DNA of 64,000 nt, from the NCBI GenBank assembly GCA_022844125.1, contig JALHMI010000014.1, positions 1-64,000 of the forward strand. Direction: 5' to 3'. Positions 54,237 to 57,643 of the stretch are shown one piece after another. A program made the position numbers and the translations under genes. A model generated the notes under the pieces. It was not told the DNA's origin, did no database searches, and saw nothing but the letters and a program-made list of their open reading frames with translations. The stretch is from Pirellulales bacterium. Its GTDB lineage: Bacteria; Planctomycetota; Planctomycetia; Pirellulales; PALSA-1355. Numbering within the stretch: position 1 is the stretch's first letter; every line of letters begins with the position of its first letter.

Positions 54237-55748
54237 CTACAGCGACTTCACTTCCGCCACGAGCTTCGTCAGCGAGCTCTTGGCGTCGCCAAACAGCAGT
54301 GCCGTTTTCGGATCGTAAAACAGCTCGTTCTCGATCCCCGCAAAGCCTGGATTCATGCTCCGCTTGAGCACGATGATGCTCCTGGCTTGATCGGCATTCA
54401 GAATCGGCATCCCAAAGATGGGGCTCGAACGGTCATTCCGCGCCGCCGGGTTCACCACGTCGTTCGCGCCGATCACGAGCGCCACGTCCGCCCGCGGGAA
54501 CTGATCGTTGATCTCGTCCATCTCCAGCATCTTGTCGTAGGGCACGTTTGCCTCGGCTAGCAGCACGTTCATGTGCCCTGGCATACGGCCGGCGACCGGA
54601 TGGATCGCGAACTTCACTTCGCCGCCCCGTCTTTCGATCAGCTCGGCCAGTTCGCGGACCTGATGCTGGGCTTGAGCCACGGCCATCCCATAGCCCGGCA
54701 CCACGATCACTTCGCTCGCATAGGCCAACTGTGCCGCCGCGTCCTCGACCGAGACGCTCTTCACCGTCATCCCTGCGGAGCTCGCCTTGCCGGCCGTTTC
54801 GACCGGCGTGCCGAAGGCTCCGAACAAAACGTTCGCGAACGAGCGGTTCATCGCCCGGCTCATCAGGATTGAGAGAATGAAACCGCTGGCCCCGTCGAGC
54901 GCGCCCGCGATGATCAGTAGGTTGTTGCCCAGTGCAAAACCCATCGCCGAAGCCGCCAGCCCCGCATAGCTGTTCATCAGCGAAATCACGACCGGCATGT
55001 CCGCCCCGCCGATCGGAATCACGATCAGCACGCCCACGGCCAGCCCGGCGAGCACCATCAGGTAGAACACCGTCGTGTGACCGCCCCACGCCGTCGGCGC
55101 CAGCACCAGGTACAAAAACATCAGCGCGGTAACGGCAAACAGCCCGATGTTGGTCTCGTTTTGGAAGGGGTACGTAATCGGCGCACCCGGCAACAGCTCC
55201 TGCAGCTTTCCGAAAGCCATCAAACTGCCGGTGATCGTCAGCGAGCCGAACATCACTTCAAAGCCGAGCGCCGCCATCTCGACGTGTCCGACTTCTGTGC
55301 CCAGGATCCGCGTCAGAAAATCGAAGTGCGAAATGCCGACGAGCGTCGCCGCCAGCGCGCCGAACGCGTGCGAGATTGCCGTCCGCTGCGGAATCGCCGT
55401 CATCGGCATCCAGATCGAGATCGCCGCGCCTATCCCGGAACCAAGCAACAACCCCAGCAGAATCCACTTGTAGTCGAGGATCCGCGCGTCGATCAGCGTG
55501 CCGATCACGGCCACCAGCATGCCGGCCGCGGCCAGTTGCATCCCCCGGCGAGCTTTGTCGGGCGCGGTCAGCCCGCGCAAACCGAGAATAAACAACACGC
55601 TCGCGGCCAGGTACGAGCCTTCAATCAGGAACTGCCGCAACCCCTCATTCACCGCGCCGTGCGCATCGGCCGTGTGCTGAGCGAGCAGGGGAGTGGCGAG
55701 CAGATTGTCGAACAGGGGCAGGCTGGGCATCGTCGTTCCGTCGGTCAC
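54237..55748 (-). CDS. pntB: NAD(P)+ transhydrogenase beta subunit
   Basis: A 503-residue subunit of the proton-pumping nicotinamide nucleotide transhydrogenase, which drives NADPH formation from NADH with the proton motive force. The N-terminal half (about 40-290) contains the membrane helices and the C-terminal part the NADP-binding domain, with the typical segments VIVVPGYGMAVAQAQHQVREL and GRMPGHMNVLLAEA and the C-terminal GDAKSS. The GTG start at 55748 overlaps the stop of pntAB (GTGA). Confidence 0.95.
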   Translation of the reverse strand: MTDGTTMPSLPLFDNLLATPLLAQHTADAHGAVNEGLRQFLIEGSYLAASVLFILGLRGLTAPDKARRGMQLAAAGMLVAVIGTLIDARILDYKWILLGLLLGSGIGAAISIWMPMTAIPQRTAISHAFGALAATLVGISHFDFLTRILGTEVGHVEMAALGFEVMFGSLTITGSLMAFGKLQELLPGAPITYPFQNETNIGLFAVTALMFLYLVLAPTAWGGHTTVFYLMVLAGLAVGVLIVIPIGGADMPVVISLMNSYAGLAASAMGFALGNNLLIIAGALDGASGFILSILMSRAMNRSFANVLFGAFGTPVETAGKASSAGMTVKSVSVEDAAAQLAYASEVIVVPGYGMAVAQAQHQVRELAELIERRGGEVKFAIHPVAGRMPGHMNVLLAEANVPYDKMLEMDEINDQFPRADVALVIGANDVVNPAARNDRSSPIFGMPILNADQARSIIVLKRSMNPGFAGIENELFYDPKTALLFGDAKSSLTKLVAEVKSL

Positions 55749-56080
55749 CGCTCGTAGCGTTTGAACATCTTCAGCATGCGGTCGGTAATCATGAACCCGC
55801 CGACGACGTTAATCGTGGCCGCAGTCACGGCGATGAACCCGAGCAGAGTGCTGTAATAGCTGTGCTGAGCGCCGGCGGCGACCAGTGCGCCGACCAGCGC
55901 GATTCCGCTGATCGCGTTCGTGGCCGACATCAGCGGCGTGTGCAGCAAGGCCGGCACCTTGGTGATGATCTGAAACCCGATGAAGCCGGCCAGCACGAAG
56001 ACGTACAGCCGCAGGAACGACGTCGTCATCGGCGCGGCTTCCTGGGCCAGCAGCGGCACGCTATGGAGCAAATCCAGCAT
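55745..56080 (-). CDS. pntAB: NAD(P)+ transhydrogenase, membrane part of the alpha subunit (PntAB)
   Basis: A 111-residue protein with three to four membrane helices, equivalent to the C-terminal part of E. coli PntA; the family is split into PntAA and PntAB in many bacteria. The segment GFIGFQIITKVPALLHTPLM SATNAISG is the hallmark of this subunit. The ATG at 56080 is chosen over the longer frame to 56158. It overlaps pntB by 4 bp. The gap to pntAA is 363 bp, far larger than usual. Confidence 0.92.
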   Translation of the reverse strand: MLDLLHSVPLLAQEAAPMTTSFLRLYVFVLAGFIGFQIITKVPALLHTPLMSATNAISGIALVGALVAAGAQHSYYSTLLGFIAVTAATINVVGGFMITDRMLKMFKRYER

Positions 56081-56176
56081 CGGCGAGAGATATCCAGCGG
56101 CTAAGCAGCAGTCGATAGAAGTCACATCGCGGCCAATGCTACCCCGTCTTCCCCGCAAGATGCAAGGGGAAGGCCG

Positions 56177-56377
56177 TTGGGGCTCGATGCCGGGCTACGA
56201 CTAGTCCTGGTCGTGATGAAGTGCCTTGTTGCCGAAATCAAGGCGGTCGAACAGCTCATTCCGATCTGTGATGCTCAACTCCTGACCCATCTAACGCTGA
56301 CCGGATACCGACCGGGCCTGATCATCAACTTCAACACCTCGCTGATCAAGTACTGTATCAAGCGCATCGCTCGATAG
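56177..56377 (+). pseudogene. GxxExxY-family protein, C-terminal remnant
   Basis: The 66 codons here end in sequence typical of the C-terminus of GxxExxY (TIGR04256) proteins: LVAEIKAVEQLIPICDAQLL followed by LTGYRPGLIINFN. The N-terminal half (which holds the GxxExxY motif itself) is missing; upstream frame sequence back to 56105 shows no similarity. The family has a PD-(D/E)XK-like core, D-x(n)-ExK. The ExK pair remains (EIK), but the preceding Asp position reads RLVLVV instead of RLDLVV, so the remnant is probably inactive. It lies on the plus strand between two minus-strand transhydrogenase genes. Confidence 0.75.
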
Positions 56378-56443
56378 GCTAGTTGCTAACAGAACATCTT
56401 CTTTGTGCCCTTCGTAACTTCATGGTTCCCACGTTTTCCCACT

Positions 56444-57643
56444 TCACTCCAGCTCAATCGCCCCTTCCATCCAGTCCTTCTCCGCAGGCTTGATGCCTAA
56501 CAGCTCGCGCACGGTCTCACTAACCACCTGGCCGTCTTTTGCTACCAGTGTGTCGCGCGTGATCTCGTCCTTGGTGTCGATGTTCCACGCGCCCTCCTTG
56601 GTCGTCAGGTGCGCAAGCAGCGTCGTCACGTTCTTGGCGAACATCTGGCTCGCGTGATTCGGCACTTCGGCCGCCAAGTTCGTCGGTCCCAGGATCGTCA
56701 CGCCATCAACCACGACCGTCTCGCCCGGTTTGGTCAGCTCGCAGTTCCCGCCGCGCTCGGCCGCCAGGTCCACGATCACCGAACCCGGCGCCATCGCTTC
56801 TACCATCTCGGCGGTCACCAGCGTCGGCGCTGGCTTGCCCGGAATCGCTGCTGTGGTGATCAGCACATCCTGGTTGGCCACGACTTCGCGCATCGCCTCA
56901 CGCTGCTTCTGATAAAAGTCTTCATCCATTGCCCGGGCATAGCCGCCTGCCGCCTCTGCGCCCGAGCCTGCCGGGGCCGCGCTCGACTCGACGAACTTCG
57001 CCCCCAGGCTCTGCACTTGTTCTTTCACCGCGGCGCGCACATCCGTCGCCGAAACAACCGCCCCCAGTCGCTTGGCCGTGGCGATCGCCTGCAAACCGGC
57101 CACGCCCGCGCCGAACACAAACACCCGGGCCGGTGTGATCGTGCCGGCAGCCGTGGTCATCATCGGGAAGATCTTGGGAAGCGTCGTCGCCGCCAGCAGC
57201 ACCGCTCGATAACCCGCAATCGAAGCCTGCGAGCTGAGTACGTCCATCGCCTGGGCCCGGCTGATCCGTGGCACCATTTCCAGGGCGAACAGCGTCACGC
57301 CGCGCTCGGCCAGTTCCTGCACGGCGGCCGGCTGGTTGAGCGGATCGGCCAGCCCGATCACTACCTGCCCCGAGCGCAGGTTCGCCAGGTCCACTCGCCC
57401 AGCCCCGGGATTCGCCCCCAGCGTGCGAACCTGCAGCAGGCAGTCGGCCTGCAAAGCTTCCGCTCGCGAAACGACCTCGGCCCCTTTCTCCGCGTAATGG
57501 GCGTCGGTAAACCCTGCCCCCTCGCCGGCTCCGGATTCGATCCGAACGGTCCAGCCCGCTTTCACCAAGGGCGTTACCGAGGCAGGGATCAGGGCGACCC
57601 GGCGTTCACCGGGAAATGTCTCGCGAAGGGCAGCTACGATCAT
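56444..57643 (-). CDS. pntAA: NAD(P)+ transhydrogenase, NAD-binding alpha subunit (PntAA)
   Basis: A 399-residue soluble, NAD(H)-binding subunit. It starts with MIVAALRETFPGERRVALIP, followed by the alanine-dehydrogenase-like fold; the NAD-binding turn is VFVFGAGVAGLQAIATAKR, and the segment RMD-like loop reads YARAMDEDFYQKQ. The ATG at 57643 is the family start; the frame is open to 58012, which would enter the rplM gene region. It is the first gene of a pntAA-pntAB-pntB operon on the minus strand, with an unusual 363-bp insertion after it. Confidence 0.95.
   Translation of the reverse strand: MIVAALRETFPGERRVALIPASVTPLVKAGWTVRIESGAGEGAGFTDAHYAEKGAEVVSRAEALQADCLLQVRTLGANPGAGRVDLANLRSGQVVIGLADPLNQPAAVQELAERGVTLFALEMVPRISRAQAMDVLSSQASIAGYRAVLLAATTLPKIFPMMTTAAGTITPARVFVFGAGVAGLQAIATAKRLGAVVSATDVRAAVKEQVQSLGAKFVESSAAPAGSGAEAAGGYARAMDEDFYQKQREAMREVVANQDVLITTAAIPGKPAPTLVTAEMVEAMAPGSVIVDLAAERGGNCELTKPGETVVVDGVTILGPTNLAAEVPNHASQMFAKNVTTLLAHLTTKEGAWNIDTKDEITRDTLVAKDGQVVSETVRELLGIKPAEKDWMEGAIELE

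Follow-up and report, generated by a model that had tools for sequence, protein, structure and literature searches.

The window, by which we mean the whole 64,000-nucleotide stretch of DNA analysed here, probably (we put the chance at roughly 80%) contains a copy of an arm-gene-arm element that has lost its left part and is dead; in its intact form the element is a PD-(D/E)XK-type gene lying between two inverted arms. The intact element type is common to many bacterial phyla. For the family of its gene, TIGR04256, which is very common and uncharacterised, the arrangement suggests a definite candidate substrate, namely the inverted arms around the gene, and this hypothesis can be tested directly with the purified protein of 130 residues and a hairpin made from an arm. 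The arrangement may also account for a large class of intergenic palindromic repeats, so far unexplained, that occurs in planctomycetes and other phyla.

The GxxExxY remnant and its remaining arm

A profile search with the 66-residue translation of the remnant frame gave a match to TIGR04256 (GxxExxY) with an E-value of 6.3e-14 and 52.3 bits, spanning positions 56-115 of the 116 in the profile, and a second match to PF13366 (PDDEXK_3) with an E-value of 2e-11. Both lie above the curated cut-offs of the two families, which for TIGR04256 is 35 bits. The sequence-only reading had taken this 66-codon fragment for the C-terminal half of a GxxExxY gene, and the frame is almost certainly a remnant of such a gene. 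The window genome has six matches to TIGR04256, this one included, and two of the six are the halves of one broken gene. When an intact relative (L046) was compared with positions 55700-56800, only its residues 66-127, which belong to the C-terminal half, could be aligned (E 4e-19), and no homology to the N-terminal half was detected in any frame of this interval, in line with the earlier statement that this half is missing. Because it is gone, the remnant is a fragment and no functional member of TIGR04256.

Table 1. Position and state of the features in and around the pntAA-pntAB gap.
Feature	Coordinates	Strand	Remarks
pntB (transhydrogenase beta)	54237..55748	-	apparently intact
pntAB (transhydrogenase alpha, 4TM part)	55745..56080	-	ATG at 56080; apparently intact
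Left part of pntAA-pntAB gap	56081..56176		a left arm and the gene's 5' half would be expected here; neither detectable
GxxExxY remnant	56177..56377	+	C-terminal half only (profile 56-115 of 116); Asp to Val, Tyr to His
Surviving right-hand arm	56401..56426	-	ACCATGAAGTTACGAAGGGCACAAAG; three tandem RCRRAG-type units, one mismatch to the arm pattern
pntAA (transhydrogenase alpha, part 1)	56444..57643	-	apparently intact

Intact relatives keep the G..E..Y, D, E.K and Q residues of the family, whereas the window copy is devoid of the GxxExxY motif, which lies in the N-terminal half, and of the core Asp. The alignments show that Glu, Lys and Gln of the D...ExK...Q core are kept and that Val replaces the Asp of the PD-(D/E)XK-like site, as had been noticed before. 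Expressed by alignment column, the remnant keeps E80, K82, Q94, N111, F112 and R123 and is changed at D70 (to V) and at Y98 (to H), the latter four residues past the core Gln. With half of the gene absent and the core Asp lost, the earlier description of the fragment as decayed is borne out. That the 66 codons, which are open and lie inside a 90-codon open frame, encode a functional small protein or a regulator of the pnt genes is hardly conceivable: half of the fold is missing, neither the catalytic Asp nor the conserved Tyr has been kept, and homology to GxxExxY sets in at the start codon. Since the left arm, the 5' half of the gene and the core Asp are gone, no protein function is expected, and the remnant itself is inert, junk DNA.

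In intact loci, a GxxExxY gene of about 130 codons has an inverted arm on either side. Both arms point inward and follow the pattern ACC(RCRRAG-N0-3)x3, that is, ACC and then about three tandem RCRRAG units with a spacing of 0-3 nt; the tandem units measure 8-9 nt. The 26-bp right arm of the window copy consists of ACC and the units ATGAAG, ACGAAG and ACAAAG, with TT between the first two and GGC between the last two. It is the sole match to the arm pattern in the window, where none is expected (100 shuffles), and it lies 24 bp past the stop codon of the remnant, which is the usual place of the right arm in intact copies. This arm is the downstream CTTCGT-type repeat that the earlier reading had associated with such genes. 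Beside the remnant no left partner arm was found, and a right arm without a left one indicates a truncated copy of the arm-gene-arm element; we therefore consider it highly probable that the copy in the window is of this kind, dead and truncated on its left side. The stretch with the remnant and its arm folds no better than chance (z 0.06). The strict arm pattern matches just once in the window genome, which is thus no rich host of arms.

A G/C-rich inverted repeat (CCCCGTCTTCCCC ... GGGGAAGGCCGTTGGGG, window 56133-56180) lies immediately to the left of the onset of GxxExxY homology and may be linked to the truncation of the remnant. The window genome also has a second decayed GxxExxY copy (L005, at C1:424351), which carries an internal deletion and is immediately followed by a gene-less palindrome, AACCACAACGACACAACG ... 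CGTTGTGTCGTTGCGGTT.

Intact loci and the GxxExxY protein

Analysis of about 30 loci from the window genome and its order gave a median best local score between paired flanks of 22.5, against 10.5 when the flanks came from different loci and 10.0 around pntAB. A second, separate set comprised 70 loci of many phyla (Chloroflexota, Acidobacteria, Cyanobacteria, Verrucomicrobia, Bacteroidetes, Proteobacteria, Planctomycetota, Methanosarcinales and others). Here 83% of the loci reached an arm score of at least 15; mispaired flanks did so in 18% of cases and flanks taken 1 kb away in 2%. The mean arm score was 21.4, and none of 20,000 permutations gave a mean above 13.7. The arms are locus-specific, since the two arms of one locus are more alike than arms of different loci. 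Strong paired arms accompany four of eight plasmid-borne GxxExxY copies and moderate ones (score 18) a fifth; the remaining three score at chance, some of them with other tandem-unit sequences. No GxxExxY gene was detected in a phage collection at an E-value of 1e-5, nor in E. coli genomes by a search at the DNA level.

The arm-gene-arm arrangement behaves as a single insertion unit, present or absent at a given site. In Bacteroides finegoldii, TTCACCACAGAGGACGCAGAGG ... GxxExxY ... CCTCTGTGTCCTCTGTGGTGAA fills the gap between radA and a gene for a FAD protein, and in Parabacteroides distasonis, where the unit is absent, these two genes are 13 bp apart. Similarly, an arm-GxxExxY-arm unit lies between fabD and fabG of Sphingomonas parapaucimobilis, and fabD and fabG are directly adjacent, without the unit, in S. 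paeninsulae and Sinorhizobium meliloti. The comparison comprises these two sites, both in organisms other than that of the window and with flanks too diverged for a target duplication to be read, and the pairs of occupied and empty sites show that gaps within operons are open to insertion of such a unit. In the Sphingomonas parapaucimobilis locus (L239:2489-2919), the right arm is translated as a portion of the C-terminal end of the GxxExxY frame, which stops 2 bp short of fabG.

An alignment of 55 relatives revealed invariant columns at G25, G27, E30, Y33, D70, E80, Q94, Y98, N111, F112 and R123, with K82 nearly invariant. Codon differences are far more frequent at the third position (0.67) than at the second (0.16), which indicates that many lineages have preserved the gene for its protein product. 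The structural model built from this alignment has a pLDDT of 94.7 and a pTM of 0.88 and supersedes one from a shallower alignment (pLDDT 54.8). A search by sequence found no solved structure for GxxExxY; the solved folds nearest to the model are those of Cas4 (SSO0001, 4ic1), LHK-Exo, RecE and lambda exonuclease (entries 4ic1, 3sz4, 3h4r and 1avq), all as weak matches with a best E-value of 1.4e-3, and there is a weak Cas4 profile match as well (E 3e-4). On the basis of the model, the protein is confidently predicted to have a small PD-(D/E)XK fold nearest to Cas4 and the lambda-type exonucleases, from which it differs in being shorter (about 130 residues). The annotated GxxExxY loci that were read show no cas or recombination-operon context.

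The pntAA-pntAB gap

The reading frames of all three pnt genes are open. The remnant lies antisense to the pnt operon in the 363-bp gap between pntAA and pntAB, as reported from the sequence alone. Measured from the pntAA stop codon to residue 24 of pntAB, the distance is 436 bp in the window and 18-276 bp in those tandem relatives for which it was determined, with one exception of 612 bp, in a list in which G031 is entered twice. The sequence-only reading had held that the two genes are normally adjacent and that a GxxExxY gene entered the operon between them. The first claim stands for the wider order and fails for three relatives of the same family (G001, G002 and G003) and for G039, in which pntAA lies beyond pntB in convergent orientation. 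The tandem order of the window is shared by G031 and more distant relatives, and rplM-rpsI neighbours pntAA in G001-G003, in the window and in G031.

Given the convergent pntAA of the nearest kin, the remnant could also mark a rearrangement junction, at which pntAB-pntB was turned or moved beside pntAA and a GxxExxY fragment was carried along. We consider this a live but rather unlikely alternative: the tandem order of G031 and of more distant relatives suggests that tandem may be the ancestral state, and an insertion would account for the additional length of the gap. Entry of a GxxExxY gene into the operon, the second claim, agrees with the long gap and with the whole-unit insertions at sites of other organisms, and has the junction as its competitor. 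No intact GxxExxY gene was seen at the pntAA-pntAB site in relatives. A scan of positions 55950-56600 found no promoter- or terminator-like sites, so that any influence of the insertion on the coupling of the pnt genes, which had also been suggested, is speculation. When window positions 54237-57643 were compared with four loci of the nearest relatives (L080, L081, L082 and L083), the pntAB-pntB block was inverted relative to pntAA.

Gene-less palindromes and the spread of the arms

The strict arm pattern occurs in up to about 200 copies in some planctomycete genomes, the number being genome-specific and ranging from 0 to 200, and the reversed-pattern control gave almost always 0. At least two arms were found in 28 of the 34 order-level genomes with GxxExxY and in one of the 22 without it. 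The corresponding figures for 195 planctomycete genomes, a sample that shares a few genomes with the order-level one, are 62 of 93 with and 11 of 102 without the gene (odds ratio 16.5, p 1.5e-16, in statistics that ignore shared ancestry). Many of these arms are paired into palindromes of about 70-230 bp that contain no gene and are often nested. The usual arm length depends on the genome, being mostly 25 in G020, 26 in G031 and 27 in G207, and the GxxExxY gene on contig C25 of G031 shares the 26-bp arm type with the gene-less palindromes of that genome. Such gene-less, multicopy, hairpin-forming inverted pairs are present in relatives and not in the window genome. Two palindromes of G020 (L202 and L206) enclose other frames, one of 110 residues that ends in a likely membrane helix and one of 70 residues that contains Cys and has a sub-threshold DUF7445 match only. 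A strand bias of the arms in G207 was considered and rejected, as the full position list has both strands throughout.

If the arms were ordinary intergenic RNA or terminator structures, with GxxExxY as a stationary gene nearby, their position close to gene ends would be explained, as would the strong hairpins formed by three of the four gene-less copies that were folded (z -6.9 to -13.4). Such an origin is very improbable in view of the locus-specific matching of the arms, the nested palindromes, the copy numbers between 0 and 200 and the occupied and empty sites described above.

Among known systems, foldback transposons resemble the present element in having long inverted ends made up of short tandem repeats; they differ in their eukaryotic hosts and much greater length. 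The intervening sequences of 23S rRNA genes have inverted terminal stems, and differ in encoding another protein family and in being inserted in rRNA genes, not operon gaps. With their S23 ORF, they are described in PMC4990558 as selfish elements that are short (428 nt) and carry a single small ORF. Also similar in organisation are the REPINs with their RAYTs (PMC3116915), likewise gene-less multicopy palindromes of two inverted short repeats, associated with the gene of an enzyme that processes DNA; however, the gene here is PD-(D/E)XK-like and not a tyrosine HUH transposase, and the arms are tandem-unit arrays, locus-specific and often nested. In the open-licence papers searched we found no description of the arm-gene-arm arrangement, a text search of such papers for the arm strings gave no hits, and the name GxxExxY appears in just two papers of this literature, each time as a bare annotation. 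As the search covered open-licence papers only, the novelty of the arrangement is provisional.

We propose that the arms of the intact element would fold into a hairpin or cruciform, and that GxxExxY, as a minimal nuclease of the Cas4/lambda-exonuclease kind, would act on the arm ends by opening or trimming the hairpins. This action could let its own unit spread together with the gene-less palindromes that bear the same arms, and template switching between the arms, which PMC8604942 treats as a general mechanism, may keep the pair alike. Whether GxxExxY is the driver of the spread is, in our judgement, an evenly balanced question. More tentatively, GxxExxY and its arms may represent an undescribed, pan-prokaryotic class of self-spreading palindromic elements that are nuclease-driven and also spread and nest gene-less palindromes.

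The main rival to a driving role of the nuclease is that GxxExxY is a passenger, the commonest cargo of palindromes that are moved by a RAYT-like HUH transposase or by a DDE transposase on MITEs. Room for it is left by the arms found without TIGR04256, by the G020 palindromes with other small ORFs and by G207, where an element of about 240-317 bp with outer terminal repeats of its own amplified an inner arm pair. The 11 arm-bearing genomes among the 102 without the gene indicate that it is dispensable for the persistence of arms or that another gene serves. On the other hand, every order-level genome with at least five arms has GxxExxY, and a long ORF inside an arm pair is nearly always GxxExxY, in a collection in which many loci were chosen for carrying the gene. 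We regard the passenger role as possible, if somewhat doubtful.

The G207 element (L270-L309) is 240-317 bp long, has the outer ends CTTRTCCTTACCCACATC and occurs in dozens of copies. Of the copies that were read, nearly all occupy the centre of CCCCCTTT...AAAGGGGG palindromes, and the element is often flanked by direct repeats of about 9 bp, for example TTTAGAAAA.
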